A stretch of 26,843 bases of DNA. Origin: a virus. Below are positions 1,693 through 20,125 of this stretch, piece after piece. Below the pieces are notes generated by a model that had not been told where the DNA came from, made no database searches, and worked only from the letters and a program-made list of their open reading frames with translations. The translations under genes were made by a program, and so were the position numbers. The DNA lies in the IMG/VR virus record IMGVR_UViG_3300024500_000092, positions 1-26,843 of that record, one strand, 5' to 3'. How positions within the stretch are numbered: the first letter of the stretch is position 1; each line of letters opens with the position of its first letter.

Positions 1693-2340
1693 TTAAGCTC
1701 CTGTAAATCCAGTTAAACTTTGTATACGAATTGTGTAGTCAATTTGTAATAATCTGTTTAACGATTTTTGAACTGGGTGGAAAACTACGTGGGTTAACAA
1801 TTTGCCTGTTCCGTTGGGGTTGTAGCTCATTAGTCCCAGTTCATCAAATACAAATTCTCCATTCATATCAACAGAGTTATCAAATGCTTCTTGATCTAAA
1901 GGCTCGCCGTAGTCTAATAAACAACTAATTAAAATGTCGCTATAAGTTGCTCCGCTGATATGTCTAATTTCCATTTTATTTCTCAACGGGTCAGTATTTG
2001 ATGACGAATTCTGATCAACAATTTTTGAATAAGTTTGGTTATATAAGCTAGAATTAATACCAGTTGTATTTGGAGTTAGATATGTTATTAACCCTGTTGG
2101 ATCTACTGTTGTTCCGCCTGTTCCAAACACCATTTGATATACTGTTCCTTGACCTTGATTTGACAACGATTGTACCATTGCAACTGACATATTTTCGTAA
2201 TGGATAGCGTTGCGTTTATCAATAAACACCTCTTTGGTCTCGGGATCGAAGATTTTAATATGCCCTTCAAAATGGAATCCGCCCGTTTCGTTTGGGCGTT
2301 TTTCCTGCGGCTGTGTAGTTTTTTCTTGATTTTGCGACAT
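1693..2340 (-). CDS. Hypothetical virion structural protein, 215 residues
   Basis: Unnamed protein between the giant gene and the tail fibre, presumably part of the baseplate periphery or fibre attachment. The frame extends up to an ATG at 2367 (224 residues), but the ATG at 2340 is preferred. It has GAGAA just upstream (2345-2349), and a late-promoter-like AATAAATA at 2369-2376 would start transcription at about 2363, past the first ATG. The protein opens with a polar, Gln/Glu-rich tail (about 20 residues), then a compact beta-rich body (GGFHFEGHIKIFDPETKEV near the front). It ends in a conserved-looking stretch with FVFDELGLMS and THVVFHPVQKSLNRLLQIDYTIRIQ-type sequence. There is no signal peptide, membrane segment or enzyme motif. 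A virion role is inferred from position only. Confidence 0.7.
   Translation of the reverse strand: MSQNQEKTTQPQEKRPNETGGFHFEGHIKIFDPETKEVFIDKRNAIHYENMSVAMVQSLSNQGQGTVYQMVFGTGGTTVDPTGLITYLTPNTTGINSSLYNQTYSKIVDQNSSSNTDPLRNKMEIRHISGATYSDILISCLLDYGEPLDQEAFDNSVDMNGEFVFDELGLMSYNPNGTGKLLTHVVFHPVQKSLNRLLQIDYTIRIQSLTGFTGA
1698..1702 (-). promoter_or_regulatory. Ribosome binding site of the tail fibre gene
   Basis: AGGAG on the minus strand, eight bases before the ATG at 1689. It lies within the last codons of the upstream gene, whose TAA stop at 1693-1695 is followed almost at once by the fibre start. This fixes the fibre start and suggests translational coupling. Confidence 0.7.
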
Positions 2341-2368
2341 TTTATTCTCGTTTGACTCCATCATCATA

Positions 2369-2376
2369 TATTTATT
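2369..2376 (-). promoter_or_regulatory. Candidate T4-type late promoter (AATAAATA)
   Basis: Minus-strand AATAAATA, one mismatch from the T4 late consensus TATAAATA. It overlaps the giant gene's last codon and stop (GAATAA). Late promoters start transcription about five to six bases downstream, near 2363, giving a short leader to the ATG at 2340. It would allow the distal structural and fibre genes to be transcribed without the 13.9-kb giant gene. This is based on sequence match and position only. Confidence 0.45.
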
Positions 2377-5300
2377 CAGGTATAGAAGTGGTCTTCTGCG
2401 CTATGAATTTAGCTACAGGAGTGTTGTTATTCAACAAAGTAACACCCGAACTTGCCGATGTTTCGCTTCTATCGTACCAGGTTTTTCCTGTTCTTCTAAT
2501 TAAAGTTATACGTGTTCCAGCTTTTAACGGGTTAGTTAAGCGTAGATAGTTTGATGACCCGTCAACTGAAAAATCAGCTTCAGTTACAATAAATCCATCT
2601 ATACCGTTATTTTCACTCCAAACAACCTGCGGGTCTTTTACTAATCTTCGGCCCTCTGCAAACACTTCAATAGTATCACAAGGTCCGTAGTTAGTAGGAA
2701 TTGTAATTAAATCCCAGTAAGTTTCCCAATCGTTAGATTCTAAAGGTTTAATATTAATACAAGGTCTGATATTTGTATAAAAACTATCATCAACCTGTAT
2801 AACATTGCCGGTTACATACTTAATTTTTTCATCATAGATGCCCTTAGTTATGTAAAAATTAGAATTGTACCATCTATTTTTATTAGATTTAGTTGGAATA
2901 AATTCAAGAGGACCTATTAATAAACTACTTCCATCACTGTAAAAATCATATCTTTCTTGTGTGTCTTCGTAAGGAATAATATCATTATAACCAACGTCTG
3001 CTACCTTAGTATCAATTAAATATTTTTCTCCAATAGGTGTTCCTCGTGTACCACGTCTTAATTGTCCTAAAACATTTTCTGTTTTAGTCATATACTCTAT
3101 TCTTTCACCGGAAATCCAAACAACTCCAGGAATATTTCTATTTCTAACAGGATCAGCCAATGACGATGCATCATTTAAAGTAATTGTAGTATCAAAATAA
3201 TTTAGATCAGATGCTAATTTAATGTCATCTAAAGAGAATCTATTAAAGTGATATACGTTGAGCATATCTTTGTGAATTTCATATGCACTTGGTAATTTAA
3301 AAATAGATTTTGAAAAACTAATTGTTTTTATTTTATCTTCAGAGGTTGTATCTTCTTTTAGATAAATTGCTCCTCTTGGTAAAGAAACATAATAATCTTT
3401 ATCTAACATTAGTCTATTTCCGTTTTTGTATACCCATACATAGCTAGACGAAATAGGAATTCTAGATAATTGAATATTAACTCTTCCTCCTGTCTTTTCA
3501 TCCGAAACAATATCAAGAGTAGGATATTCATTGAACCAAGTAATGTCAATTTTAACATTATCTGTTTCGTCTGCCGATACCATCGAAACATCGTCTAATA
3601 TCGTAACAGAATTTCCTGATATTGTATACTCTCGTCTTAGGTCATTTTCAACTTTAATAATATCACCAATGTTTAAAGAATCAGGATATATTGTTAATTC
3701 TTTTGTTGGACCATCAAATACATAATTAGTAATGAACTCTACTAATACATCATTAATAAAAACTTTTAAGTTGCTTGGCAAAATACTTCCAGGAGTTTCG
3801 TAAGGATCCTGGCCTAGAACAATAACGTTATTAGTTCCGTCGTATGTTCTATAAATTGTATCAGATCCTTTTAGGATTCGACCGTCAACTTCAACAATTA
3901 CAGCATTACCCGAACTTCCTCTAGAATATTCAAAAAATCCATCTATATCAAATGTTCGTGTACTTCCTTCAAAATAAACTGTTTGTGTGTTGATATTAAT
4001 TACAGATAAGTCACTAGGTGCTATATCTGTTGTTGCTGATAAACATACAATCTTAATTGTATCACCGGCTTCGGGATTAAATCCAAACTCAACTAAAGTT
4101 TTTCCGTTTGTATCAATTATCCCTGTGCTATTTTTAAATCCTGTATCAAATAATCTACCGTTTAATGTTACATAAACATTAGAAGTATTATCGTAATCTG
4201 CATTTGTTAAAAATAAATTTGTATTACCGTCAGCAATAAATTCTTGATAGTCGATAATTCCAAGACCGCCCAATCCAATTGATAATATTTCAACTAAGGA
4301 ATCGGCTGGTGGACTTGATGCAAAATTAACTTTCTGATTTATCAGATCAAGTGTATAATCTATATTGATTACTTGTTTAATTTTATCAATATAAACAATC
4401 ACTGAACTATTTTGCAACACTGGTTGACCAATATTAAAACTAGTATCAACTCCAGTGCTTCGAATTAATTTTGTGTGCAACGGAGCAGAGCCATTAATTA
4501 TATTATTGTATACTTTGATAGATACGCTATCTAATACTTGGCCGGGAACATTTTCTTCTGGTGCTGGTACCTGTTCAGGGCTAATAAACGACCCACCATT
4601 AATAATAATTTCTTCAACCGTTGCTCCATTGGCTGTAACATATGCTCCGTCAATTGCAGAAAGTGTTCCTCCGCTAACCTTTGTATCTAGTAAGTTGTCA
4701 TCTGTAATAGTTACAGAGCCGTCACTTTCAATTGGGCGGAAAATTAAAATGTCTCCGGCACTGGTAGAAATATACGTTCCAATTTCAATATTTGAAGTAT
4801 TACCGTCGCCGACAAAAGATGGCATTTGTGCGTTAGGATTAATTGCAACCGACGAATCCCAAGCATCTGTATAGTTAGGATCGTCAATTCTAATAATTTC
4901 TCCTGTTACTGAATTTTTTATGTAGATGTTAATAATTTGACCGTTTGCAGGAACATACGGTAAAGTAACATATGTTGTGCTTCCATCACAGACATGGTAA
5001 TAATCTGAATTTGCTTCAACACTATCCCAGTTGTCAGTGAACCAAGGCAGAGCGTCCCATCCACCAGTAACATCAAAGGTAGTACCTTGGATTTGAACAC
5101 CTCCAAAGTCAATACCTGTCATTAACTGTCCTAGATCCTTTCCTATCATTCCCGCCTTAGGATTATACTTCTGTTCAATTCTATTAACAGCATCAAACAA
5201 TTCAATATTTTTATCGTAGTTTACTACTATAATATCTCCTGCAGACGGTGCTATTGCAAAATTTAATTTTCCTTGTAGACTCTTAAATCCAGGAACTGTT

Positions 5301-8300
5301 GAATAATATAATGTAATTGTGTAATCAGAATTTAATAATAATTGATTATTTTTATAAACTGATATTTTATTTTTATCTCTGGAAGGTGCGTAAGATAAAT
5401 TAAACACCGATGTTGTTCCTGTTGCAACAAATCTTTCAGATTGTGAAAAACTAGTATACAATCCAGAAGTTGTTAACCTATCAAATTTAACTGATACATG
5501 AAGTGATCTAATTAAACTGTTTCCAATGATTGCAACTGCTTTGGCCGATCTAGCTCCGGCTGAATTTCCTCCAACCAATGAAACAGTAGGAGCAGACAAG
5601 TATCCTTGGCCAGCATTAAGAACTACAATGCCGGATACTTTACCATTAGAAATATAAGCCTGTGCTGTTGCGCCAGTGCCAGATCCTTCAATTAATACTT
5701 TAGGTGGAGTTTTGTATAATTCTCCCGAATCGTATACTTGTATATCTGTAATCGAATATCCGTTATTATCAGACCACCACTTCCAAGGATAAACATTTAA
5801 TAAATCATTATCAAGTTTGATCGGAATAACTTTTCCATCTTTAACAGAAAACGTTGGTTCTAAATCAAAGTCTGCTACAGATAAATCATATTTTTCAGGA
5901 GTTGTGTATTGGCTAACATACTCTCTAACAGTAGTTCTAAAAGGTTTTACTTCGTTAATATATTCTTGATAACTTGATAAATTATCATTTTTATAGTTAG
6001 TTGGCTGACTAAATGCTCCTACGTTGTGTGTTGCATTTACAAAACTTGTTTTAAACATCCAGTCAACATATTGTTGCTCAGACAACACATATCTCATAGA
6101 TGCAAAAAATAAATTGTTCCATTCGATATTAAAATCGCCAACGAAAATATCTTCTTTAACAGCTTTTAAAATATTTCTTAATTCTAAAGATGTGTTAATA
6201 TCGTAATTTGTATCATCATACGCCTGCGATCTATCAAATCCAATTCCAAAGATTGAAGCGTCGTATAATGAGTCACTTAATTTTATAGTTCCGTTTTCTC
6301 TCGAAATTAATTCAAATCTGTCTAAGAAAGTACTGCCTGTATCTGAGACCTTTTCAAATACTGCCCATCCACCTGATCCATATTCTTTAACTCTTATCAG
6401 GTCGCCGACGGAAATTTTATAAATTACTTCGTCGTGTATGCTTAATAGTTCTTTGGTAATTCTAGATTTGTTATTGTATCCAGATTTCCACCAATCAATA
6501 TAACTCCAATATCTTGTAGTATCGTATGCTTGTGATTGAGTTCTAAAGAAAGTTTTTCTTACATCGTCCCAAGAATATATACTCCAGAAATTGTTAATAG
6601 TAGAATCAGAGTTTACTAATACAGAGAAATAACGAACAGACGCATTAATTGTACTGTATTTTTTTCCTCTAGTTAATACTGTTACTGTTCTAATTCTTCC
6701 TTGGTTGTCAAGAGTTACTTCTGCAGATGCACCTTTGCCATCCCCATTAATAACAACATTAGGAACTACTTTATAACCGAAACCAGGATCTATAATATCA
6801 ATAGTGTCTAATTCACCGTTTACAATATTTGCAGACAGCACAGCTTTTTTGGTTCTTATGGTACCTACATTTTGCAAATCTATTTCAGTGTCAACTTGAA
6901 CATCGTATAGATTTAAGATTTCAGCAGGGGCTGAATCTTTTAAGTTTAAATTTGTAAAATCAATAATAGTTGCAAACGGTTGTTTTAACAATACAGAATT
7001 TATTTTGTTAACAACAAGTTTTAATGCTGCATCTTTGTTAACAAACATACTTTGACGAGGTCTAAAATCTATTCCGTATTTTTGTTTTGCCGGAATGTTG
7101 ATATCAGGAACTCTATTACCGATAATATCAAAACCAACTAAACTGTCTATCCATTTATTTTCAAGTTTAGGTGTTGGTAAGCTGCTAGCAATACCTTCAG
7201 TCATTAATTGATATTCTTTATGTACTGGGATTGATATACCTAATTCGTTCTTATATTTTATATTAAGCAATGCAGTATCTGATTGAATAATAGAATCAAA
7301 ATTATAGGTTATAAATTTATCAGAATCAACAAATGCTATAAACGGTAGTCCAGTTCCTACTGGGTTTGATATCAAACTAGCTACTTCAGAGCAAGATTTT
7401 CTTCTAAAATTTAAATTAGAAGGAACTGTAGATTTATTCTTTACCCAGTAATAATAAAGAGTCTTGTTCACTTGACCACTGATAGAATTATAAAATTGTT
7501 TTGTGCTATAGGTATCATCATTAGGATATAATGGCTGGCCGGAAATTCCAACTGCTAGGCCTTCGTTTGTATCAGCTAAAGCAGCCCACTCGCTAGGCAA
7601 CAACGGAGTTTCCACCCATTCGTAAACATCAATACTTGCGCCAGTTACTAGTTGTGTCCAATTACCTTGTCTGTAGGAAATGTCTCCAATTTCAGAATAC
7701 ATCCATTTTGCATTACCTACATTCCACCATAGCTGTCCAACATTTTTTTCTAGCCAGTTAATAGAACTATCAACTACTACGTCTTCAGTTCCTACAGTAT
7801 AGACCGCAGGGTCGTATGGTGTTTTAAATTTAATTTCTTCTTCTGCTAAATTAAGGATTTTACCTTTAGCAGGATCTATAAAATCTATATCCTGTATTTT
7901 AACATTTTTAATATTGTCGTATAACTCAACACTATTAATTTTTCTTATGTCAACTAAAGGAGATTGTTGAGATATAATAGTCCAAGAATCAACAGAAGAA
8001 TCTTTGCTGAATAATCTTATATTACCAATGTAATCTCCTGTATTATCTTTTCTATAATAAGGAGACCCTACTAATACTTTTGATCCAACACAATCAATAC
8101 TATAACCAAAACTTTCATTTTCAACAAGTACAGATTCTAATTTTTCTGTTAAGAAAAATTCGTTGTCTTTTTTATCAAATATATAAACGCCGCCGGTGTA
8201 TCCTTGGTCAACATAGAAACTAGTTCTTCCTTGATCAAAGAGTGTTCCGCTCATTGAATCAAATATTATAGGATAATGCGAATAAGTGTTTTTAGAACCG

Positions 8301-11300
8301 ATGGCTATTTTATATCCGTCCGGGCTAATAGAAACGCCGTATCCAAAGTATTCACTTGGATACATTTCATAACTTTCTAATTTTTGTTTTACTTTAAATT
8401 CAGAAATATTGGAATCAAAATTAAGAACATATACTGATCCTTGATTTTGATAATTTATGTCTGATCGTGGGCTAGAAATAATCAATGTAGTACCGGATGA
8501 GTCAACATCTACAGAATATCCAAATTGATCTCCAACATTTATTTCCATGCTCACATCTGAATAAGATGATATGTTTGCAGATGTTAGTGTCTGGATTAAC
8601 TGATATAAATCATAACTAGTTTTCTTGTATACAAAAACTTTTCCTGAAGGATTAGCAGCACTATCGCCTACTTCTTGCCAATTGGCACTGGACGACGGAT
8701 CTTCTCCTTGACTTCTGTAAGTAGAATCTGGGTTTCCTGACGCATCTCCTAATCGATAATAGATATCTGAATATTTGACAACTTCTCCTTCTGCATATTC
8801 TACATCGGCTCTCCACAATCCTTTGTAGTTAGAAAAATATTGACCGTCGGCATACGGAGCGCCAACAACTAATATACTTCCGTCTCGGCTCATTGTTAAA
8901 CTATAACCAAATTGTTCATCTTGTTTTATAATTTCTGTAAGTTGATCCACTGAAATTATTCCAGCTGCAACTGTTGAGCCGTCGTCTTCTATAGACACAT
9001 TTGTTGGTAAAGAGCAGCTTGTAGAAACATCACTAACTTTTATCCAACCAGATGATTCTAGTGTTAATGTGCTGCCGTCACCTTGTTGTGTTTCAAGTGC
9101 CTGCCATAGGTTGCCCTTGACTTCTTCTACAATTGGATCTTGTGCAGGTTGCCATACAATATCGCCTTCACGATAAATTGTTGAAGGATTATAAATTCCT
9201 TTATAGTGAGAATTTTCTAAATGTTCCCAGTCGGTTCCTGTGTTTTTAAACAAATAAACTCTTCCGGAACTGTTTACTGATCCTACAGCACTAACTGCCA
9301 TATAATAATTTGTACCGTCATAACTTACAGTTACATTAGATCCAAATTTTTCATTTTCAACAGGTCGAGGACTTACAAATGCTTTTGCATTTGTGTATCT
9401 TCCATTTGAAAATTCATATATTGCAATCATTCCTTGATTGTAAAAACCAGAAACTCTTCCTGATGTTAGTACTGGAATATTAGTTGCAATTTCCCAATCA
9501 TCAGTGTTAACTGCTGCTACTGTACTTCCGTCAGTACCTAGATAGTTAGGATTCTTGGCTCTCCAGATTTGTCCGGAATAAAGCACAATATCGTTTGTTT
9601 GATATCTTACCTGAGACTCCCAAGGTCCTTGGTAATTTGTTTTTAATCCGCTGGCTTCAGGCGTTCCAATAATTAAAAATCTTCCGTCCGGTGACAACGC
9701 CATTGATTTACCAAACGATCCAACTGCATTACTATATGTGTTAACTGGAGGAGACAATATTTGTTTTATTTGTAGGCCGGTATCAGTTTCAACATAAACT
9801 ACAACTATTCCCGATCCTGGAATACTTGAAATTATTTGTTTATTAATATTGTCGTACAGAACTGACGATCCGGCAAATAGCGGATTAGTTACACCGTAGT
9901 CAGAAATTGTTTTAGGAGAATACTGTTTATTTTTTTCAACAACTTCCCAATTTCCTGTATCATTAGAATCAACAAATAATCTAGATTTATTTTTTAATAA
10001 CGCTGCTTGTTGGTTGTCTATAGATTGATAATCAGCAAATCTGCATTCAGTTATTAACTGAACTCGTGTAATTGTACTGTAATCAATTACAGGATCTTGA
10101 ATCGTTGACGATACATTAACAGTGATTGTTGCAGTAGTTTTATTAGAAACTTTATAAAAGCCTACTAAATTTAATATGTTTCTAAAGCCCACATACTCGT
10201 CGATTTGAATAGAGTGCGGACGATTAAATGTAATAACAACTGTTGTATCCGATGGACGAGTGACGTCAGTTATTTCAAGAGTGGCAGATTCGTTAACTCT
10301 TAATACTGTCCAAGAATCTTTTTCAAACGTAACCCAAATGTGATCATTTTCTTTTATAGAATTTATATCTAAAGTTAATAAATCTTCTCTTGTCTTAATA
10401 GAATGATCAATAGTAGTCGAAGTAATATATCCTGCGGTATAAGGGCAAGATAAATCAGCAGTGGGTGATATATTAACATTAAATGGGGTTGGTACTATTG
10501 TAAAATCAGAAGAAGTTATTCTATACTTTTGATCTGTAGTTAAAGCAGACTTAGTAGTTTCTATTAAAAATTGTTGAGGGTTAACTTCTAATTTATTTTT
10601 TTCAATTTGTATTTCAACTTCAGTAAGCTGATCAACGCCTCCGACTTTTCCTACTAAAAATGCCCATTCTTCGTTGAGAGAAATACTATCAGTTTCTGAA
10701 CGACTTAATTTTCCAAATATTTTTGTAATCGAATTTGCTGTTCCTTTTTCACGAACAAATCCTTGATATATTTGAAATTGTGTAACTGGATCTTCTGAAA
10801 GATTCTGTAGATAATTTCTAGTTTGATATCCTATTGTATGACGAGCTAAATCTCTGTGACTCTTGTCTAGGCCGTCTGACGTTACTTCAAAATAATCAGA
10901 GAACCCTTTAATTTTGTAATCGAAGTTAGGAACTAACTGTTTTTCTGGAGTTGTATCTAACTTGCTCCAATAGGCATCATTAAATGTTTGAGAGCCCGGC
11001 TGATTAATCAAGCTAGTCCAATTGTAAGATTTATAAGAAACAATATCGCCTAACTTGTAATCAGTATATGGTACCCAAGGTTGTATATTAACATTATCAA
11101 ATAAGAATCCTGGGCTGGTATAATCTCCGTCCCAATCGGTTGTTCTATATCCGTGTACTTTTATTCTTCCTTGACGGTAACCGGTTGTCTTGTCATAGAT
11201 AGTATCGTTAAAAACTGTTTTATCGTCAAAAATAGTTACGTGTTCTTTCAGAACATAAAATAACTTTAGATAGTAAATACCGTCAGTGGTATTTGTGGTA

Positions 11301-14300
11301 GTAACTGTGATATTTTGAAAATTTCTGCTAACATCAATATATTTTGGTTGCAGAGGTTTACCGTCACCTTTAAGAACTTGATAATTGTAAAATCCTTCTA
11401 ATACGCTATCAGCAACGCCAACAGGAACTGTTATGTTAACTTTTTGTGCTGCAGGGCTTAGTGAGATCAACGATCCGACTTGCCAGCTGTGCTTGGTCCA
11501 GAACATAAATTCTTTTGCAGCAGATAGCCAGTCTTGCGATACTTTATTTTCAGGATCGTAATTATCAAATATAAATCCTACTGATTTGAGATAGGCTTCG
11601 TACCCCAATAGGAAATCAACAACCTGTTGAATAGTTGTAAATTGTGTTCCGTAACTTAGACGTTTAACTACCAGTGTGTTAAATGTTCTTCTACCGCTTG
11701 CTTCTACTGCTCCAGTTTTTGGAATTCCTGCTACTTTTTTCCATAGATCAATGTCAAATACATCTCCGCTGGTGTGAGATTTAAGTGCTCTATAAAATTC
11801 GTTGGCATATCTCACTAATATTCCATTAGAGTATAATTTATTAGCTTGCCAGTCTAAGAAATTCTCACTTGTGCCGCCAACAGATATAATAGGATCTCGT
11901 TGGTTTGGAAGTGCTTGGAAATAATTAAAATATGGTTGTATATCGTCATAGCCTTTTAACACCCACCCGCTTGAATTTTTTTCTATAATTACTCCGCTGT
12001 AAGACAAGCTAGCAATAGGAGAACTTACATTAAAAATAATATCGTAGTTCTCTGGAGGAACATATACGCTAGATGACGATGCTGCTGGACTCTTAGAGTC
12101 TAATAAAAATTTTTGTTGTTGCTGGTCAACAAATCCAGACATTCTATGCGATATTTGTACATCAATATTATTAATCTTATCCCATAAGGTAGTTTCATCG
12201 ATACCTTTTGATTTTACATAATCGATAATATATTTTCCAAGACCAACTATATTGTCAGTTGATTGACCATAATTTTCTTTTGTAATAAATTTGCCAGTAG
12301 ACGAATAAATTGTTTGTCCTAGGTTGTTTAAAGATACTCCGTCTTTGTTAAAATTATTCGAAATAAATTCAAACGGTCTCATTAATGCCATTGCTATTAC
12401 AACAGCAAATGGCCATTCAGAACTTGATCTCCATGCGTATTCGACAGGAGCTATATCGCCTAATACGAACGATCCTTGATTGTTAATTAATGAAAAATCT
12501 CTAGCTAATCCAGAATCTAATGGGCTCAATAAACGACCTTCGTCGTCTACAGGAATATGAGATAGTAATGTATCCCTTGTATATCGAGCGTATCTGCCCT
12601 TTCTTGTACCTTGACGTATAATTCCGTTTGCTAAATCTTCCCAAAGAATTAAATTTCCTCTAGTATAAGGTGCAGGGCCGTATTCACTTTCCCACCAAGT
12701 TGGTTTTTCACTAAAGCCCAACATTTCCCAAGGACAACGATGTGGTCGATCAGTATCGTAGAAATATTGATACACACCTCTCCAATACCCTGGTAAATTT
12801 TCAGACCTTGTAGGATCTGTCATATTTGTGTAGGTATATGTAAAAGAATTTTGACTGTCAAAATAAGAATTTAATGTATAATTAATATTTGTATTTTGAA
12901 TCCATTTTAAAAATTCTTGAGACACTATAATGTCCAATTGAGATTTTTTATATAATCCGACACCGTAGTAACCGCCAACAATATCGTCTATATTAAAAAT
13001 GTCTTCATTGTATTCTTGTTTGATATTATTATAAATTCTATATTCTAATTCTAATAATAGATCATCTCTAAAATCGCCATATGTTGCTGAAATGCTACCG
13101 TCGTGACCTTGAATAACTTCTCTTGGTTCTACATAGGTATCATCAACAAATTTCATTGGAGTATATTTTTTATACAATCCCATTGACGTTGGAGTTGCTG
13201 GAATATAGTTCGAAGATGTAGAAACATATTCTCTAATTTCAATTACATCACCTTCGGTTAAATTAACTGATAACTGTACAAAACCAAAAGTAGAATTAAA
13301 TGTGTAATCTTGAGAATTTAATAATTGGTTTCCGTTAAAATAAACGTAAACGGCTCTACTGCTAGGAGTAGATAAATCAAATTTCGTGCTAAGAGAAAAT
13401 GTTTTTATTCCTGGATCATCAACTTCATATACTATTGAAGTGAATGCTCCGCTACCAATCATATCGGACTCTGAAAATTGATTTGTTGAATTTTTAGTTT
13501 TTGTTAAACTGTTTATAATCTCATCGACAAAATCTGGAATATTATCATTGTAATCTATTTCTAATGCTCTTGATAAGAAATTATTTTTAAATTCTGTATA
13601 TGACTGCTTAGAATACTGTATTGATTTAACAATATTATGAGTTTTATCGCATAGCGACATCAACACTACTGGAGTTAAACCAGAATGTTTTAAAAATCGT
13701 TTTCCAAATTTTTGGAAATTAGATATATCACGCAAATTAGAATTTCCTGGAACTATGCCAGTAATATCAATATTAAACTCTAATGCAGTTGTTAAATGAT
13801 CAATTGCTTGGCCAAGAGTAAATGTTATTAAATTATCGTTAAATGGATTCTTTTCAAGACCTACAGGAATTTCGTAATATCCTTGGTCTGGTTCAATGTC
13901 TGAAATTAATTTCAAAGAAACTGCATCATTTATTTCAAATGTTGTTGAGAATGTAAAAGTTCCTAGAGTTCGTGTCCAGTCTCCAAGATACTTTGTACCG
14001 TTAACATAAAAATTAATTTCGTTATCTTCTTTGAGATTTTCCCATCTTACAGTATTAAAAGTTAAAATGTTTGTAGATTCTTTTACAATTTGACTGTCAA
14101 TGATAGGTTGAAAATATTTTGTATCTGCTAGCAACCAACCGTTTTGATAATCATCTCCGTTGATGTTGTTAAATTTATAGAAGCCGGTGGCTAGATCTTT
14201 AGAATATGTAACTCTATCGATCACATATTCAAATTTAGCAGAATCCCAAGACCAATTAAATTGTATGTCTCCGATATTATTGATGTTGAGATAACTTATA

Positions 14301-16228
14301 CTAAATCCTAATTCTTTATCAACAACACTAGAGCCAACTTTATAACTTAAAATTTCAGTACCAACAAACGTATTAGTCGGATATGTATCTTCATTAGAAA
14401 AACTTATTCCGTTGTTGTCAAACCCGTCAAACATTGGACTTTGATTAACTGTAATTTTTTGCTGGCTTTCTTTCCAAGCTGTTCCTGTGAAATGGAACAT
14501 CTTGCCAGAATTTTTATTGCCGCGTCTAATTAATAAACAACTACCAACAGCAGATTCGCTATCTAAGGCTTCTTTTAAATGTATTTGGCGTAGATTATTA
14601 TGTGTTATAAATTGTACTTCATAAATTTTATTATTTGCAAGACTATCAGTATCAGCAACAAATAAAACTCTTGCGCCTTCAAATAAAAACTCACCGTCAA
14701 TGTTGTAACCAGAACTACCTTCTATGATACTAAAAATATCAGTAGTATTTGTATCTAAATAATCAACTGTTTGTTTAGCTACAGAACCAAAGTTATATAA
14801 CTGTAGATTTGGTTTAAATTCGATAATAGGTCTTTTTGCTCTTAAAGATTCAGTTGCTGGAAAATCTTCTCCTCTTAAGGAATATGATTTTTCTAAAACA
14901 GATCTATGAAACCATCTGTTATATCGACTCCAGGGATTTAAATCTCTACTATCTCTTCGAATTGTTGTATAATCTTTATATGTTGGATATGCGGTCGCAT
15001 CGTCAAACGGTTGCGTATCAAATCCTTCATTGTCAAATAAAACTTCCGGTACATCTGTTGTCAATACAGGAACGACCAGACTATCGAATCTTGTTAGTGT
15101 AATAGCATCGCCTACTCCTTCGACTAACCAATTATTATGAGAGTACTCAGCAGGAGTTACGTTTCCTCTAAATTCGACAATCATTCCACTTGATAATTCT
15201 ATTCCGTTGCTAGAAGTGTATTGAGATTTTCCAATAATATCTTTATTAATATTAATGAAAGAATTTGATTCTATGTCGGCAATTAAAAATTTTCCAAAGC
15301 GATCTGGAGTTATTAATCCTTGATAATATAAAGTGTCCGGAGCATCGTAGGGCACTTCAAATGTTAAAGTACCATTCTGAGTTCCGTTATTTGTTACACC
15401 GTTAGAATATTCTAACGCAGTAGTCGACGATGCTAGGTCGACAAACTCCCAGTCTTGACTATCTATACTAATAGAGCTGCCGTCACTTGGCGAAATATCT
15501 CTTTTAGCTTTCCATAGGTTTCCATCATAAACTGCAAGGCTTCCTGCTTTATAAGAGTGATAAGGTTGGAAAATTAATGAACCGGTATCATAGTTTGTTC
15601 TAATAGAAAATCCTTCTCCCGGAGCATTAACTTTAAACTTATATGTTTGTCCCCTGTACAAAGTAATTGTAGGATTGTTTGTATAAGAATCAGGAGTGAA
15701 TACAAAAGAGTTTCCTGTTGTTCCTAAAACAACTTTATATGTACTTGTTACCTTGGCGGTTTGGCCGTATATAGGTAAACTTGGCGGACCGCTTGGTTGC
15801 CAGTAGTATTCTCTGTAATTAATAAACTTATCCCAATCAACAGGAGGATTCCAAGTATAATGTTCTTGTTCTGTTATCTTGTCGTCACGCTCATCAATGT
15901 TTCCAAAAAACTTTAACTGATTTTTAAAGTCAAGGTAGTCATAAAAATTTTCAATTTTATTAAGATTTTTATAAACAACACCGGGTTCTAATTGGTATCT
16001 GCTTCTTAAAGTATTGTCTGTATCTACATATACATCAGTGCCAGTGTAAGTTTTTTCGTATCTTCTTCCTACATATCCAACAACCTTATCTAATACGCCA
16101 GGCTGGACTAAAGGATCTAATACTCCTGATAAAAACTTATCGTTACTAGATGTTTGAAAAACAGAAGGCAATAGCTCAACTGTTCTTCTAATTGGTAAGT
16201 TGCTCTTAGGATAAAATTTATCTGCCAT
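2372..16228 (-). CDS. Giant multidomain baseplate/tail protein, 4618 residues
   Basis: A single uninterrupted frame of nearly 13.9 kb directly after gp6, where T4 has genes 7 to 11. Domains in order: a conserved-looking N-terminus (residues 1-150); a cupredoxin-like fold split by an insert (about 176-303); a block rich in aromatic residues near 1134-1293 (YWRGVYQYFYDTDRPHRCPW, then WWESEYGPAPYTRGN); two aromatic carbohydrate-binding-like modules near 1457-1501 and 1714-1760; an FG-GAP beta-propeller (about 2130-2765) with three more such modules inserted; a fibre-like GQLWWN module near 2830; glycine-rich repeats (3146-3193, 3488-3571); serial beta-hairpin repeats (about 3600-4290); and a last aromatic module near 4459-4511. 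No signal peptide, membrane segment or catalytic motif was recognised. The start lies just after the gp6 stop (TAATAATTATG) with no good ribosome site, suggesting coupling. A virion role is inferred from operon position and fold types; the precise role is unknown. Confidence 0.9.
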   Translation of the reverse strand: MADKFYPKSNLPIRRTVELLPSVFQTSSNDKFLSGVLDPLVQPGVLDKVVGYVGRRYEKTYTGTDVYVDTDNTLRSRYQLEPGVVYKNLNKIENFYDYLDFKNQLKFFGNIDERDDKITEQEHYTWNPPVDWDKFINYREYYWQPSGPPSLPIYGQTAKVTSTYKVVLGTTGNSFVFTPDSYTNNPTITLYRGQTYKFKVNAPGEGFSIRTNYDTGSLIFQPYHSYKAGSLAVYDGNLWKAKRDISPSDGSSISIDSQDWEFVDLASSTTALEYSNGVTNNGTQNGTLTFEVPYDAPDTLYYQGLITPDRFGKFLIADIESNSFININKDIIGKSQYTSSNGIELSSGMIVEFRGNVTPAEYSHNNWLVEGVGDAITLTRFDSLVVPVLTTDVPEVLFDNEGFDTQPFDDATAYPTYKDYTTIRRDSRDLNPWSRYNRWFHRSVLEKSYSLRGEDFPATESLRAKRPIIEFKPNLQLYNFGSVAKQTVDYLDTNTTDIFSIIEGSSGYNIDGEFLFEGARVLFVADTDSLANNKIYEVQFITHNNLRQIHLKEALDSESAVGSCLLIRRGNKNSGKMFHFTGTAWKESQQKITVNQSPMFDGFDNNGISFSNEDTYPTNTFVGTEILSYKVGSSVVDKELGFSISYLNINNIGDIQFNWSWDSAKFEYVIDRVTYSKDLATGFYKFNNINGDDYQNGWLLADTKYFQPIIDSQIVKESTNILTFNTVRWENLKEDNEINFYVNGTKYLGDWTRTLGTFTFSTTFEINDAVSLKLISDIEPDQGYYEIPVGLEKNPFNDNLITFTLGQAIDHLTTALEFNIDITGIVPGNSNLRDISNFQKFGKRFLKHSGLTPVVLMSLCDKTHNIVKSIQYSKQSYTEFKNNFLSRALEIDYNDNIPDFVDEIINSLTKTKNSTNQFSESDMIGSGAFTSIVYEVDDPGIKTFSLSTKFDLSTPSSRAVYVYFNGNQLLNSQDYTFNSTFGFVQLSVNLTEGDVIEIREYVSTSSNYIPATPTSMGLYKKYTPMKFVDDTYVEPREVIQGHDGSISATYGDFRDDLLLELEYRIYNNIKQEYNEDIFNIDDIVGGYYGVGLYKKSQLDIIVSQEFLKWIQNTNINYTLNSYFDSQNSFTYTYTNMTDPTRSENLPGYWRGVYQYFYDTDRPHRCPWEMLGFSEKPTWWESEYGPAPYTRGNLILWEDLANGIIRQGTRKGRYARYTRDTLLSHIPVDDEGRLLSPLDSGLARDFSLINNQGSFVLGDIAPVEYAWRSSSEWPFAVVIAMALMRPFEFISNNFNKDGVSLNNLGQTIYSSTGKFITKENYGQSTDNIVGLGKYIIDYVKSKGIDETTLWDKINNIDVQISHRMSGFVDQQQQKFLLDSKSPAASSSSVYVPPENYDIIFNVSSPIASLSYSGVIIEKNSSGWVLKGYDDIQPYFNYFQALPNQRDPIISVGGTSENFLDWQANKLYSNGILVRYANEFYRALKSHTSGDVFDIDLWKKVAGIPKTGAVEASGRRTFNTLVVKRLSYGTQFTTIQQVVDFLLGYEAYLKSVGFIFDNYDPENKVSQDWLSAAKEFMFWTKHSWQVGSLISLSPAAQKVNITVPVGVADSVLEGFYNYQVLKGDGKPLQPKYIDVSRNFQNITVTTTNTTDGIYYLKLFYVLKEHVTIFDDKTVFNDTIYDKTTGYRQGRIKVHGYRTTDWDGDYTSPGFLFDNVNIQPWVPYTDYKLGDIVSYKSYNWTSLINQPGSQTFNDAYWSKLDTTPEKQLVPNFDYKIKGFSDYFEVTSDGLDKSHRDLARHTIGYQTRNYLQNLSEDPVTQFQIYQGFVREKGTANSITKIFGKLSRSETDSISLNEEWAFLVGKVGGVDQLTEVEIQIEKNKLEVNPQQFLIETTKSALTTDQKYRITSSDFTIVPTPFNVNISPTADLSCPYTAGYITSTTIDHSIKTREDLLTLDINSIKENDHIWVTFEKDSWTVLRVNESATLEITDVTRPSDTTVVITFNRPHSIQIDEYVGFRNILNLVGFYKVSNKTTATITVNVSSTIQDPVIDYSTITRVQLITECRFADYQSIDNQQAALLKNKSRLFVDSNDTGNWEVVEKNKQYSPKTISDYGVTNPLFAGSSVLYDNINKQIISSIPGSGIVVVYVETDTGLQIKQILSPPVNTYSNAVGSFGKSMALSPDGRFLIIGTPEASGLKTNYQGPWESQVRYQTNDIVLYSGQIWRAKNPNYLGTDGSTVAAVNTDDWEIATNIPVLTSGRVSGFYNQGMIAIYEFSNGRYTNAKAFVSPRPVENEKFGSNVTVSYDGTNYYMAVSAVGSVNSSGRVYLFKNTGTDWEHLENSHYKGIYNPSTIYREGDIVWQPAQDPIVEEVKGNLWQALETQQGDGSTLTLESSGWIKVSDVSTSCSLPTNVSIEDDGSTVAAGIISVDQLTEIIKQDEQFGYSLTMSRDGSILVVGAPYADGQYFSNYKGLWRADVEYAEGEVVKYSDIYYRLGDASGNPDSTYRSQGEDPSSSANWQEVGDSAANPSGKVFVYKKTSYDLYQLIQTLTSANISSYSDVSMEINVGDQFGYSVDVDSSGTTLIISSPRSDINYQNQGSVYVLNFDSNISEFKVKQKLESYEMYPSEYFGYGVSISPDGYKIAIGSKNTYSHYPIIFDSMSGTLFDQGRTSFYVDQGYTGGVYIFDKKDNEFFLTEKLESVLVENESFGYSIDCVGSKVLVGSPYYRKDNTGDYIGNIRLFSKDSSVDSWTIISQQSPLVDIRKINSVELYDNIKNVKIQDIDFIDPAKGKILNLAEEEIKFKTPYDPAVYTVGTEDVVVDSSINWLEKNVGQLWWNVGNAKWMYSEIGDISYRQGNWTQLVTGASIDVYEWVETPLLPSEWAALADTNEGLAVGISGQPLYPNDDTYSTKQFYNSISGQVNKTLYYYWVKNKSTVPSNLNFRRKSCSEVASLISNPVGTGLPFIAFVDSDKFITYNFDSIIQSDTALLNIKYKNELGISIPVHKEYQLMTEGIASSLPTPKLENKWIDSLVGFDIIGNRVPDINIPAKQKYGIDFRPRQSMFVNKDAALKLVVNKINSVLLKQPFATIIDFTNLNLKDSAPAEILNLYDVQVDTEIDLQNVGTIRTKKAVLSANIVNGELDTIDIIDPGFGYKVVPNVVINGDGKGASAEVTLDNQGRIRTVTVLTRGKKYSTINASVRYFSVLVNSDSTINNFWSIYSWDDVRKTFFRTQSQAYDTTRYWSYIDWWKSGYNNKSRITKELLSIHDEVIYKISVGDLIRVKEYGSGGWAVFEKVSDTGSTFLDRFELISRENGTIKLSDSLYDASIFGIGFDRSQAYDDTNYDINTSLELRNILKAVKEDIFVGDFNIEWNNLFFASMRYVLSEQQYVDWMFKTSFVNATHNVGAFSQPTNYKNDNLSSYQEYINEVKPFRTTVREYVSQYTTPEKYDLSVADFDLEPTFSVKDGKVIPIKLDNDLLNVYPWKWWSDNNGYSITDIQVYDSGELYKTPPKVLIEGSGTGATAQAYISNGKVSGIVVLNAGQGYLSAPTVSLVGGNSAGARSAKAVAIIGNSLIRSLHVSVKFDRLTTSGLYTSFSQSERFVATGTTSVFNLSYAPSRDKNKISVYKNNQLLLNSDYTITLYYSTVPGFKSLQGKLNFAIAPSAGDIIVVNYDKNIELFDAVNRIEQKYNPKAGMIGKDLGQLMTGIDFGGVQIQGTTFDVTGGWDALPWFTDNWDSVEANSDYYHVCDGSTTYVTLPYVPANGQIINIYIKNSVTGEIIRIDDPNYTDAWDSSVAINPNAQMPSFVGDGNTSNIEIGTYISTSAGDILIFRPIESDGSVTITDDNLLDTKVSGGTLSAIDGAYVTANGATVEEIIINGGSFISPEQVPAPEENVPGQVLDSVSIKVYNNIINGSAPLHTKLIRSTGVDTSFNIGQPVLQNSSVIVYIDKIKQVINIDYTLDLINQKVNFASSPPADSLVEILSIGLGGLGIIDYQEFIADGNTNLFLTNADYDNTSNVYVTLNGRLFDTGFKNSTGIIDTNGKTLVEFGFNPEAGDTIKIVCLSATTDIAPSDLSVININTQTVYFEGSTRTFDIDGFFEYSRGSSGNAVIVEVDGRILKGSDTIYRTYDGTNNVIVLGQDPYETPGSILPSNLKVFINDVLVEFITNYVFDGPTKELTIYPDSLNIGDIIKVENDLRREYTISGNSVTILDDVSMVSADETDNVKIDITWFNEYPTLDIVSDEKTGGRVNIQLSRIPISSSYVWVYKNGNRLMLDKDYYVSLPRGAIYLKEDTTSEDKIKTISFSKSIFKLPSAYEIHKDMLNVYHFNRFSLDDIKLASDLNYFDTTITLNDASSLADPVRNRNIPGVVWISGERIEYMTKTENVLGQLRRGTRGTPIGEKYLIDTKVADVGYNDIIPYEDTQERYDFYSDGSSLLIGPLEFIPTKSNKNRWYNSNFYITKGIYDEKIKYVTGNVIQVDDSFYTNIRPCINIKPLESNDWETYWDLITIPTNYGPCDTIEVFAEGRRLVKDPQVVWSENNGIDGFIVTEADFSVDGSSNYLRLTNPLKAGTRITLIRRTGKTWYDRSETSASSGVTLLNNNTPVAKFIAQKTTSIPE
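2695..2850 (-). other. Carbohydrate-binding-like aromatic module near the giant protein's C-terminus
   Basis: Residues about 4459-4511. The pattern is a start near KYVTGNVIQVDDSFY, then a spacer, then a closing tryptophan region (SNDWETYWDLI). It follows the Y..G..V.....(F/W)Y/W ... W rhythm of the other modules in this protein, though it is the most diverged copy. Resemblance to the CBM5/12 type is by pattern only. Confidence 0.4.
3300..5460 (-). repeat. Serial beta-hairpin repeats in the giant protein
   Basis: Residues about 3590-4310. Several units share the rhythm 'V-Y-hydrophobic-N-G/N-x-x-L...D-Y-T...(I/V)-x-F...A-G-D-x-I-x-V'. Examples are ISVYKNNQLLLNSDYTI followed by AGDIIVVNY, VIVYIDKIKQVINIDYTL, VYVTLNGRLF followed by EAGDTIKIV, LKVFINDVLVEFITNYVF followed by IGDIIKVEN, and VWVYKNGNRLMLDKDYYV. 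A similar unit occurs far upstream near residue 980 (VYVYFNGNQLLNSQDYTF). These look like duplicated beta domains typical of phage fibre and spike proteins. Identity between copies is low, so they are protein-level, not DNA-level, repeats. Confidence 0.6.
5515..6792 (-). repeat. Pair of glycine-rich beta repeats in the giant protein
   Basis: Two regions, residues about 3146-3193 and 3488-3571, carry the same pattern 'GxGY...P.V.I.G.G.GA.A.....G.V..I.V...G.GY'. The first has GFGYKVVPNVVINGDGKGAS; the second has TPPKVLIEGSGTGATAQAY followed by VLNAGQGYLSAPTVSLVGG. The two copies are about 300 residues apart. The pattern is familiar from large structural proteins of marine phages; its function is unknown. 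Confidence 0.6.
7660..7745 (-). other. Fibre-type GQLWW module inside the giant protein
   Basis: Residues about 2828-2857, VGQLWWNVGNAKWMYSEIG, followed by a second tryptophan at NWTQL. It resembles the GQLWYKSDDGILMMWDNTSW module at the N-terminus of the tail fibre (residues 66-85 there), with the same G-(Q/E)-L-W-(Y/W/V) core and a tryptophan about ten residues later. Confidence 0.5.
8665..8825 (-). other. Aromatic module inserted in the propeller (third insert)
   Basis: Residues about 2468-2521. It begins at NYKGLWRADVEYAEGEVVKY and ends at a tryptophan (SANWQEVGD), interrupting a propeller blade between its G-A-P loop and its G-K-V-F-V-Y strand. The pattern resembles CBM5/12 chitin-binding modules (W/Y start, G-x-x-V-x-Y, central aromatics, closing W). 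Confidence 0.55.
9030..9205 (-). other. Aromatic module inserted in the propeller (second insert)
   Basis: Residues about 2342-2400. It begins at HYKGIYNPSTIYREGDIVW, has the central NLWQALE, and closes at GWIKVSD. It follows a blade's outer strand (RVYLFKNTGTDWEHL). It shows the same Y-(K/Q)-G entry junction as the two other propeller inserts. Confidence 0.55.
9475..9632 (-). other. Aromatic module inserted in the propeller (first insert)
   Basis: Residues about 2199-2251. It begins at NYQGPWESQVRYQTNDIVLY, has the central GQIWRAKN, and closes at DDWEIATN. It sits directly after the I-G-T-P loop of the first blade. This is the best match here to the CBM5/12-like pattern, including the IVLYSGQIWRA core. 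Confidence 0.6.
10951..11090 (-). other. Carbohydrate-binding-like aromatic module in the giant protein
   Basis: Residues about 1714-1760: WVPYTDYKLGDIVSYKSYNW, then AYWSKLD. It has the same order of a starting W, Y-x-x-G-x-x-V-x-Y, a central W and a closing W as the propeller inserts. It lies outside the propeller. Confidence 0.55.
11726..11860 (-). other. Carbohydrate-binding-like aromatic module in the giant protein
   Basis: Residues about 1457-1501: FLDWQANKLYSNGILVRYAN, then EFYRALK and DLWKKVAG. It shows the shared pattern of W-x-x-x-x-x-Y...G-x-x-V-x-Y, a central aromatic pair and a closing W. Confidence 0.55.
15320..15703 (-). other. Cupredoxin-like fold split by an aromatic module
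   Basis: The first half is residues 176-211 (NPTITLYRGQTYKFKVNAPG, then FSIRT). The second half is 274-303 (NGVTNNGTQNGTLTFEVPYD, then APDTLYYQ). Joined together these read like a small cupredoxin-type beta sandwich. Between them (about 221-266) sits an aromatic module (YKAGSLAVYDGNLWKAKRD, closing QDWEFVD). The usual His/Cys/Met copper ligands are absent, so metal binding is unlikely. Confidence 0.55.
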
Positions 16229-16233
16229 AATTA

Positions 16234-19200
16234 TTAATAAGTTGTTGAAACAATAGTTGTAATACTTGCACCCAATTCAGCTGCTGTAATAGCCGAAACT
16301 ATTTCAACATCATCAACAGTTGCACCACTAATTAAGATTTCGTCCGATCTACTTTGAATCTCAAAAAGACTTCCGAATACCTGATTTGTTTGTTTTGGAA
16401 CAATAACAATATTTGCTAGGTCCGGAGCACAGGAATTTAAAATATAAGTTGTCAATTCGCTCATATAAAATCTATCTCCAAAGTCCCAATTGTTAATATC
16501 AAAGAAATTGTTAATTGCACCTATTACTCTCACTTTTAAATCATTGTCGTTAATAGTTTTATTTGGGTTTTTCACTACCTTAAATGTTGCTTGTAATTTT
16601 GGATCAGCTTTAGATCCAAACAATACTTTATATTTGGCTGAATGGTAAACTATTTCGTCGCTGAGAGATTTAATCGCAGACAATGTTCCGCCAAACGTAG
16701 TTCTTAATACTTCTGTATCTGGTGGAGTTGGTTCTGTAGATATTCCGCCCTGTAAATACATTCTGTAATCTTCGTCATATGATCTTACCAACATATATGT
16801 GTCAATAATGTTACTCGATGAAGGATCAATTCTACGATAAGTTGTAGCATTGTGAACATACTGGAATTTTAAATTTCGACGGCCTAAAACTGCTTTGTAG
16901 GATGTAACTAGATCTAATGTATTTGTTGTTCTATTAACTTGTTTAATCACGTCCTCGTCAACATCATAGAAATATATAAGTTGTCCGTCTGGATAAGTTG
17001 CAGTATCGTTAATATCAACAACTGATTCTTTTTCTAAAACTAACACAGAGTTAATTGAATTATCAATTAATGAGTAGTAAACTGTTCCGTACTGATCAAC
17101 AGACTGTTTAAAAAACAAATAATTTAAAGACTGATCGTCGCCCACAATTGTTTCAAAAGATTCAGGATTATCAATTATTCCATCACTGTTAGAATCATAG
17201 AATGATAATTTAATTTCTGAAGTACTTTCATATCCATCATCAAATTTTATAGTATCACTAATTTCAAAAGAAACATCTTGTTTTAATTCAGTTATAAAAT
17301 CACTCGATGTATTGATACCTAAAACTGTAACTGTATCTTTGACAACATTGCCTGTTTGATCATTGTAACGTTTTTCGTTGGCATCAAAATAAAATCTATT
17401 TTGTTGTAAACTTCCAAATATGTAATTTAACTTTCTTACTCTAACAGTATAGCTGTCAGCCTCTTTTACAAAAGCAACAATCCATGACGAGTCGACTCCG
17501 GTGTTTGAAATATCACCAGATTTGCCTAGAGTAAAATTATCAATTAAGTTTAAATTAGATGATGTTATAATCGACCATTGTAGTGTTTCAACATCGTATC
17601 TCAAGCCAAAATTTAAATTTTGATATGCTTGATTTACTATTTCGTTTTCTAAAGAAACATTTAAATCGTTTATAAATCTAGGAATAATTCTTGAAGCAAT
17701 GGCTCCTGTTGGAACTGTTTTGTTTAATACAATAGGTCCCAATCCGTTAGTCAAAGCACCCCTTCCTGTGTTTGTGCCATCTCCAGTAATTTTAACAGCC
17801 TCTGCCCATATCATATTAGTCTGTAAAGGATCTGTAGGATCTGCTGCTACCATTTCTCCGTTTTTAAATGCTTTGCCTTCTTCTGGTACAAACTTGATAA
17901 GAGATCCTACATAAAAATATTTTAATAGGTTAGTAGAATAGCTACCAACTTTTGTTAAAGATGAATCTACTGTATTTTTAAAGTATCCAGTTGGTGTTAT
18001 TGTGGTGACAGCTTCCCAAACGGTTTTATCGTCTGTGAATAAAATTTTATCAAATTTTGTAAAATAAAAATTATATACTTCGTTACTAGAAAACACAGGC
18101 TCGATGTAACCTCTTATAAAATTAATAATGTCTAGTCTATTATTAAATTTAAAAGTTAAAGTTTCTTCTGTTTCTTCTTTATAGATATAACCGTCATTAG
18201 CAAATACATTAACTGAACTGTATTTTCCAGACGCATCGATGATATCGTAGTTTCTAGATATTCCGCTAGAAGTTCTATTAATAGATTTTACTTTTAAAAT
18301 ATTTTGAGAACTAGTTAACGGTGCTAGATTATAATCTTCTGCGGTAATCATACGATTCTGTGTATAATATACAGCAGGAGCATTTGTTCTAATTGTATCG
18401 ATATCTTCTGAAGCAGCAGAATTAGTGATAGTTGACTGTAGTGCCAACCCGATTGTTAGAGTATGAGCAACGCCAGAAGCATTTACATAATTAATGCTTA
18501 TGTTGATTCCTCGCAAATCGTTTGGATAAATTGTATATCTATATCCGTTGCTGGTTCTATAATAAACTCTAAAAGGGCCTTGTGGCAAATTACCATAGAC
18601 TCCGTCAGCAAACACTAAATCAATGTTATCATTTTCTTTTGTGTTGACTGCATAGATATTTCTAACGTTCTGATTAACACTATTATAAGCAATATTATTT
18701 CCAACAAGGCTTGAAACTTTTGTCCATTCTTCTAATTGGGCTCCGGCTGCATTTAAAGAAAATAACCAAACATCGTTGTTATTAATGTTATTTGCATCAA
18801 CTGCAATTTTTTCATTAGTAGTAGGAGCATCTATGCTAAAATCAGCAAGTTGCATAGTGCCTTGTTTAAACATTAAAAAGAATCCAGTATTTGCTGAACC
18901 AGGTCCAGTGCTATCATTACGATAAACAAAACCTAACTGGTTGCCCGGCACTGGTGGTTCTTCGTAGATATTTTCACTGTTAGCAAATGCTGTAGAAACT
19001 ATCTCAAAAGGCATTCCTCTAGAAGCAACAGATTTACTAAAAGAAAACAAAGGAACGTCAGCAGTGGTTGTTCTAAAACGATACTGTTCTGTTGGAATTC
19101 CTTGAATTGTAGCAGATCCTTGGCTTCGACCAAACTCTGTGTTATCTGCCATTGCAGAATTTAAAACTAGAATAAACTGTTCTAACCAGTTAGTGTTTGT

Positions 19201-19687: not shown

Positions 19688-20125
19688 TTATACTATGATA
19701 GAATTGTTTTTATCAAAATTAAACGTCATACGCTCACTAATATTAAATGGAACGTAAACGATATCTGCTTGAATTCTTATTCCTTGATCTGTAGTATCGA
19801 TTTGAATCTCATTAACTGCTATTCTAGGATCGTAATTGATAATATCTTCGACGTCTTTTGCAATAATTTTTTTAACTTCTTCAGTGAACTGCTCAAATAA
19901 CATATCCCAGATGACTGTACCAAACTCTGGGTTTTCTAATTTTTCTCCTTTGCGGATATAAAAATGATTTATTAGATCTTGTTTAACTAGATCAATGTCA
20001 TAAAGTTTATAATTTTTTGCTCCGTTTGAAGAACTAAATCCCCTATAGGTAAAAGTTCCGTAATTAGTAGTAACTTGTGCATTTGATGTTGCAACTGTTT
20101 TTTGATTATAAATTTTTGTTCCCAT
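19688..20125 (-). CDS. 25: Baseplate wedge protein gp25-like, 145 residues
   Basis: gp25 is the small, lysozyme-like-fold (but not enzymatic) wedge protein that starts sheath assembly and binds gp6 and gp53. The length fits (T4 gp25 is 132 residues). Diagnostic sequence runs from residue 47: LINHFYIRKGEKLENPEFGT, then IWDMLFEQFTEEV, DVEDIINYDPRIAV and the strand pair after it. The E-P-R signature of the family appears here as D-P-R at residues 99-101. The start codon lies two bases after the gp5-like stop (TAATTATG), with only a weak, distant AGGGA, so translation may depend on the upstream gene. Confidence 0.93.
   Translation of the reverse strand: MGTKIYNQKTVATSNAQVTTNYGTFTYRGFSSSNGAKNYKLYDIDLVKQDLINHFYIRKGEKLENPEFGTVIWDMLFEQFTEEVKKIIAKDVEDIINYDPRIAVNEIQIDTTDQGIRIQADIVYVPFNISERMTFNFDKNNSIIV

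Follow-up and report, generated by a model that had tools for sequence, protein, structure and literature searches.

A 4618-residue protein encoded beside gp6 in a jumbo-phage family: a candidate third baseplate-wedge protein

The giant protein encoded in the stretch of DNA analysed here (the window; 26,843 nucleotides of IMG/VR record IMGVR_UViG_3300024500_000092, a 26.8-kb virus fragment) is probably part of the baseplate wedge, where it would stand in for T4 gp7 (the BW3 role). The protein is real, intact and widespread, and it belongs to phrog_10938, a known, unexplained family of RaK2-, PA5oct- and Atu_ph07-type jumbo phages. If the assignment is right, the baseplate of a large and widespread class of phages becomes interpretable, and the third wedge protein has taken up adhesion modules in at least two lineages, the jumbo phages and the cyanophages.

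An intact giant gene in a baseplate operon

The open reading frame occupies positions 2372-16228 of the minus strand, from an ATG start through 4618 codons to a stop, and its predicted product has a mass of 519 kDa and a pI of 4.8. An earlier note, made from the sequence alone, had described a single-frame protein of this length directly after gp6, and our analysis confirmed it, with an intergenic gap of only 5 nt. Because each of the other five frames of the gene holds 229-595 stops, the open frame is not a product of chance. The idea that an assembly or annotation error has united several genes, which the earlier note had named as a way in which it could be wrong, can be dismissed with near certainty: the whole gene recurs with 0 mismatches in a 134,843-bp IMG/VR contig (locus L218), overlapping parts recur with 0 mismatches in eight other IMG/VR loci (nine loci on seven contigs in total), 47 complete homologous ORFs of 2497-4918 aa share its N-terminus and core (a count that omits ORFs open at either end), and isolate phages carry genes for 3326-4555 aa.

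The genes around it form a baseplate operon, given here in minus-strand order:

24483-25616, minus strand: virion structural protein (phrog_12050)
24182-24481, minus strand: gp53-like wedge protein
21738-24179, minus strand: virion structural protein (phrog_11190)
20128-21738, minus strand: gp5-like central spike protein (phrog_13211, profile positions 23-422 of 887; OB domain slightly under the Pfam cut-off)
19688-20125, minus strand: gp25 baseplate wedge protein
16234-19641, minus strand: gp6 baseplate wedge protein, 1135 aa (phrog_10646, E 7e-293; phrog_219, E 3e-23)
2372-16228, minus strand: giant virion protein gene, 4618 aa, in the gp7 position (phrog_10938 family)
1693-2367, minus strand: conserved companion of 224 aa (phrog_11259; present in 7/7 named relatives)
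1-1689, minus strand: tail collar-domain fibre protein, leaving the window at its edge

Only 4 nt separate the giant gene from the 224-aa ORF. On the plus strand, beyond the baseplate genes, lie a late sigma factor gene and then the start of a gene for an SbcD-type nuclease. The T4 order is gp6-gp7-gp8, and the giant occupies the slot directly after gp6, as gp7 does in T4. For the gp5-like spike protein (20128-21738, minus strand), Pfam returned no lysozyme at a threshold of E 0.01; unlike the window, RaK2, PBECO4 and CBB have two genes annotated as tail lysozyme in the same operon as the giant. The record of PA5oct gp357, a homologue of the 224-aa protein, carries an ESI-MS/MS note.

A widespread family with variable modules

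Profile searches placed the first four segments of the giant in phrog_10938 (E 3.8e-96, 1e-148, 2.8e-39 and 3.9e-31), and its last 1000 residues had no match to that PHROGs profile. Named homologues occur in Phosso (4555 aa), Atu_ph07 (4449), PA5oct (3857), SCTP-2 (3807), CBB (~3340), PBECO4 (3333) and RaK2 (3326), such that the protein of the window is near the first two in length and longer than the other five. With aa 990-1720 as query, tblastn found 60 phage records (E 1e-3), and with the gp6 of the window 61 (E 1e-5). In IMG/VR, relatives of the first 1000 aa are encoded in 223 stretches and relatives of the last 1000 in 185; a query made from an alignment of far relatives found the core in at least 587. 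In cellular genomes, 28 stretches matched the search pattern and none encodes a relative. Phage Sharanji, a relative, is recorded with E. coli K12 MG1655 as its host, and PA5oct-like phages infect P. aeruginosa PAO1. The best 21 BFVD rows for the core model belong to Atu_ph07, uncultured phages or Myoviridae sp. ctWb16, or are nameless. The earlier note could name no function; a family already exists, and a gp7/BW3 wedge role can be proposed for it. The listings of our literature searches named no function for the protein, and existing annotations, among the matches listed, read 'hypothetical', '(putative) structural' or 'virion structural', with a chitin-binding domain in one record. PHROGs assigns phrog_10938 to head and packaging, whereas the position of the gene points to the baseplate. 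The structural-gene passage of the Atu_ph07 paper names gp181 and gp182 for the baseplate and does not name the giant, gp180 (PMC6102473).

Proximity to gp6 prevails in the family. Among IMG/VR loci with at least 1.5 kb of upstream sequence, drawn only from the searches with the first 1000 aa and the core, 148 of 149 (118 of 119 distinct loci) have a same-strand gp6 match no more than 3.6 kb upstream, as judged with a gp6 profile built largely from the same loci; the remaining locus has no gp6 match upstream. On the downstream side, 32 of the 38 complete loci have a homologue of the 224-aa companion at a distance of at most 1.5 kb. Of the seven named phages, six have gp6 next to the giant; the exception is Salicola phage SCTP-2, where the giant and gp6 (L005 17551-28974 and L292 9231-12956) are ~90 kb apart and the companion is still adjacent to the giant. 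In SCTP-2 a 3096-aa ORF directly precedes the giant.

Homologues of the giant have been detected in virions. The virion data drawn on here list CBB_236 with 21 unique peptides (7.72% coverage), next to 13 peptides (12.47%) for the neighbouring baseplate wedge protein CBB_237 (PMC5259590). Similarly, mass spectrometry of phAPEC6 virions lists the 'hypothetical' protein gp245 (381.88 kDa) with 17 peptides (7.6%) and the adjacent baseplate wedge protein gp244 with 21 peptides (24.2%) (PMC7247149). We infer that gp245 is the homologue of the giant from its size, its position and the assignment of PBECO4, in that report, to the species of phAPEC6. For gp355 of PA5oct, ESI-MS/MS is noted in the record. 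In these sources, virion presence holds for homologues of the giant only, those of CBB, phAPEC6 and PA5oct.

Comparison with far relatives separates common blocks (aa 1-180, ~400-850, 1000-1720, which is the best conserved, 1800-1900, 2800-3100 and 3230-3500) from variable parts (aa 1900-2800 and the C-terminus). Two AlphaFold2 models, from 71 and 73 sequences, were obtained, one for aa 1-1000 (mean pLDDT 84.4) and one for aa 988-1908 (mean pLDDT 83.0). The features of the protein, from its N-terminus, are:

15689-16228, minus strand: aa 1-180, N-terminal block, aligning with 7/7 named far relatives at 20-33% identity
15263-15760, minus strand: aa 157-322, cupredoxin-like domain interrupted by a CBM5/12-like module (VIA Z 11.5, rmsd 2.3, 97 residues)
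15437-15577, minus strand: aa 218-264, CBM5/12-like module 1
11069-13261, minus strand: aa 990-1720, best conserved family block, its first part helical in the model
11729-11860, minus strand: aa 1457-1500, CBM5/12-like module 2
10955-11086, minus strand: aa 1715-1758, CBM5/12-like module 3
10613-10951, minus strand: aa 1760-1872, helical region with K1828-G1829, a possible gp7/gpI core motif
8009-9718, minus strand: aa 2171-2740, beta-propeller of FG-GAP type (six blade motifs; three CBM5/12-like modules lie between blades)
9485-9631, minus strand: aa 2200-2248, CBM5/12-like module 4
9032-9202, minus strand: aa 2343-2399, CBM5/12-like module 5
8669-8824, minus strand: aa 2469-2520, CBM5/12-like module 6
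6635-6859, minus strand: aa 3124-3198, GxGY-type beta module, matching the wedge-labelled phrog_2885 and phrog_438
5534-5755, minus strand: aa 3492-3565, second GxGY-type module (phrog_708, phrog_701)
4277-4459, minus strand: aa 3924-3984, Phage_T7_tail-like stretch, under the Pfam cut-off
3035-3223, minus strand: aa 4336-4398, beta module with a match to residues 72-128 of P-SSM2-like gp7 (E 3e-5, best of 157 windows)
2720-2845, minus strand: aa 4462-4503, CBM5/12-like module 7

The N-terminal block was matched by profile in all four far relatives searched, and pLDDT over aa 1-80 is only 54-85 per ten-residue block. In the model, the cupredoxin-like domain matches copper proteins. The adhesion-type folds of the earlier note were upheld for the propeller (FG-GAP_2, E 1.6e-20) and for the sugar-binding-like modules, where the CBM5/12 fold is present by fold comparison and near the Pfam cut-off; for its beta hairpins we found only the sub-threshold Phage_T7_tail match and a few regular-expression hits. 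The adhesive role that it suggested is no more than possible. We take a Trp-Trp or Tyr-Trp pair after [WFY]xA to be the surface chitin ligand site of CBM5/12, and by inspection this pair is absent from all seven modules. CBM5/12-like modules also occur in other contractile-tail proteins, and for both reasons sugar binding by the giant is, as far as its residues indicate, only possible.

The seven named relatives showed no FG-GAP blade motif and zero or one CBM5/12-like module, low counts that should be read with care because the profile used for mapping was trained on the window and favours near relatives. A hypervariable tip was considered and rejected: in 172 pairs whose core identity is 80-98.5%, none of the blocks acts as a swapped cassette, and mean identity per 100-aa window is 0.73-0.94 up to aa 4200, with sparse data beyond.

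Comparison with gp7 and gpI

No other gp7 was detected in these phages. None of the seven complete named relatives matched phrog_964 (T4 gp7), phrog_17744, PF09684 (P2-type gpI) or PF23786, of which PF09684 and PF23786 are weak tests because both miss T4 itself as well. In contrast, phrog_10938 was found in all seven and not in T4. The giant itself has no match to the families of T4 gp6, gp7 or gp8 (phrog_219, phrog_964 and phrog_977); it does not look like the chain of known wedge proteins that the earlier note had considered, and a fusion of T4-type gp6, gp7 and gp8 was rejected. Six of the seven named relatives also gave no match to T4 gp8 (phrog_977), and Atu_ph07 has a weak 28-position match. 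PHROGs labelled 'baseplate wedge' (phrog_2885, phrog_438 and phrog_708) match the giant only through beta modules of ~60-80 residues, and phrog_438 is matched by T4 gp8 (profile positions 3-86) and by the giant (182-259) at different places. The gp9-type connector family phrog_677 matches at aa 269-317 only. The N-terminal block (aa 1-180) was rejected as a gp7 core, with no profile support and with the block not found in T4 or in four Kyanoviridae genomes.

Profile comparison of the giant family with the T4 gp7 family gave no credible match; in a scan of 157 windows the best score (25.6) fell under the best for reversed profiles (27.1). As a control, P-SSM2-type gp7 matched T4 gp7 at E 2.3e-8. 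The reach of the method is limited, since the gp6 family of the jumbo group, used as a yardstick, matched T4 gp6 at only E 2.5e-4. Against the P-SSM2-type profile, the top match of the 157 windows was a small beta module common to both (aa 4336-4398, E 3e-5). The next were two helical regions, aa 840-906 and ~1800-1875 (E 0.003-0.04), which map in the correct order to adjoining parts of the core of marine gp7. For two of three marine profiles (one of them pooled), reversed profiles scored below both regions; for P-SSM2-type gp7 alone they scored above them. Against T4 gp7, the seven top-scoring windows include neither of the two.

The second helical region carries a short motif. All 113 sequences compared have K1828 and G1829, the next residue being T (103), S (8) or A (2), and the pair is flanked by predicted helices at 1814-1826 and 1831-1841 (AlphaFold2 model). 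A KG(T/I) motif is also present in T4 gp7 (STKGIEAS), P2 gpI (CHKGTIGA) and three marine gp7-slot proteins, among them those of P-SSM2 (QSKGIEES) and S-SSM5 (TAKGTSFS); in T4 gp7 and P2 gpI it presumably sits between two helices, and we take it to be a hallmark of BW3. The KG region, chosen after the scan of 157 windows, matched a pooled gp7 core at E 0.0015, a score that none of 60 column shuffles equalled. In the same register it matched P2 gpI at E 0.05 (3/60 shuffles as good), a comparison with a single P2 sequence because the 80 gpI loci are near-identical, and against T4 gp7 alone it reached E 0.07 (8/60). Families listed for 54 members of the KG region (Pfam, NCBIfam and PHROGs) include no gp7 or gpI family. 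Fold searches with both models (aa 1-1000 and 988-1908) returned lists filled by CBM5/12 and cupredoxin folds, with no gp7, and the PDB list of the core model was led by its CBM5/12-like modules.

Overall, the residue-level comparisons make true gp7 homology of the giant suggestive only. We tentatively propose, at somewhat less than even probability, that the giants found next to gp6 in jumbo phages are true gp7/BW3 proteins not yet recognised as such, with a helical core (aa 840-906 and ~1760-1872) split by an insertion of ~900 residues. If so, a universal wedge protein would be hidden in a half-megadalton protein with further functions at the wedge periphery and in host contact.

Cyanophages too are known to have giants in this slot: gp6 is adjoined by proteins of 5195 aa in P-SSM2 (PSSM2_111, annotated gp7), 6076 aa in Syn9 and 6171 aa in S-SSM5. 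The earlier note was right that the protein exceeds any T4 baseplate component in size, and these three ORFs of 5195-6171 aa mean that its size is not unprecedented. Family and precedent are both known already, as phrog_10938 and as gp6-adjacent cyanophage giants of larger size. The pelagiphage HTVC008M holds a 1016-aa protein in the slot. That the P-SSM2 giant is a real gp7 follows from its profile match to T4 gp7 at E 2.3e-8. Its gp7 core is recognisable in the first 300 residues, where the giant of the window has none; the two share a GxGY-type and one other small beta module, and the module at aa 3492-3565 matches P-SSM2 gp7 locally at E 3e-4 in a two-sequence comparison. A published comparison, in the part drawn on here, describes T4 gp7 as absent from two marine phage groups and apparently replaced by VrlC (PMC7029224); contrary to this, the P-SSM2 record and our profile comparison place a gp7 core in the gp6-adjacent giant. 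In S-SSM5 (L407 4340-22855) and Syn9 (L488 3763-21993) a gp9/gp10-type connector comes after the giant and no gp8 is annotated in the interval, and P-SSM2 keeps a separate gp8 after its 5195-aa gp7.

Proposed position in the wedge and alternative readings

The earlier note had placed the protein at the baseplate of a T4-like phage, a reading partly supported, through the baseplate operon, the adjacency to gp6, the adhesion-type modules and the presence of homologues in virions. A wedge role in place of gp7 is favoured by the gp6 adjacency, by the virion detection of homologues beside wedge proteins, by the failure to detect a T4-type gp7 or P2-type gpI in the seven relatives, by the cyanophage giants in the same slot and by the KG motif. 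Counting against it are the lack of a credible T4 gp7 match, the choice of the KG match after the window scan and its shuffle result against T4 gp7 alone, the higher reversed score for P-SSM2-type gp7 alone, the lists for the 54 members with no gp7 or gpI family, the distant gp6 of SCTP-2 and the one locus in 149 with no gp6 upstream. The giant resembles T4 gp7 and P2 gpI in its position after gp6 or gpJ and in the KG(T/I) motif, and differs from them in having no significant sequence match and in being 4.5 times longer than T4 gp7. We hold the wedge role to be probable, and hidden true homology to be somewhat less likely than not, because of the slot, the missing alternative gp7, the KG-motif scores and the want of a family hit.

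By analogy with other phages, the giant would be the outer member of the wedge that anchors fibres and may add contact with the cell surface. According to the part of one report drawn on here, BW3/gp7 of other phages builds the wedge periphery and carries receptor-binding proteins (PMC10811340). In each of six wedges, gp6 would be packed against the conserved blocks (aa 1-180, ~400-1900, 2800-3100 and 3230-3500). The added modules, whether insertions or extensions (the cupredoxin-like domain, the seven CBM5/12-like modules, the FG-GAP propeller and the beta hairpins), would point outwards to the periphery. There the companion of 224 aa and the fibre proteins would be attached to these modules, which may also make contact with the cell surface before contraction. 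Wedge incorporation, the six copies, gp6 contact, fibre anchoring and any host binding are all proposed from these comparisons. A wedge protein with CBM folds can bind hosts, as reported for Gp119 of phage Vp4, a BW3 with carbohydrate-binding modules: a GFP fusion decorated sensitive Bacillus cereus strains and a counterpart lacking the CBM did not (PMC11406892). In the passages drawn on, Gp119 is like the giant in being a wedge protein that bears CBM folds and unlike it in its length (831 aa), its CBM folds (CBM16 is named) and its Gram-positive host.

The giant could instead be a peripheral fibre or adhesin docked on the wedge, with the BW3/gp7 role filled by a smaller protein such as the 224-aa phrog_11259 companion. 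This reading fits the wealth of adhesion-type modules, the unproven gp7 homology of the giant, the annotation of the Syn9 giant as 'putative fiber' and the constancy of the companion described above (7/7 named relatives, 32/38 complete loci); moreover, P2 gpI, a minimal protein of the BW3 role, has only 176 aa. We nonetheless consider it unlikely, at about one chance in four in our judgement, since it is the giant that occupies the slot beside gp6, and ~730 aa of it form a core of high conservation distinct from its variable modules, whereas the 224-aa protein has no gp7 or gpI family match and is not adjacent to gp6 in the window.

A precursor role, in which a phage or host protease would cut the giant to yield several structural proteins, appears more doubtful still, and we regard it as improbable. 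Other giant phages are known to mature some of their virion proteins by proteolysis, and a gene for an ATP-dependent protease lies directly beside the giant gene in RaK2, PBECO4 and CBB. In Atu_ph07, PA5oct and Phosso, however, no protease is annotated beside the giant, and the parts of the published virion data on homologues that were drawn on report no cleavage. The wedge reading remains the one that we prefer. The protease genes of RaK2, PBECO4 and CBB are ClpA-like and lie on the opposite strand to the giant (L003 27526-29835, L004 27538-29826 and L167 23612-25909).
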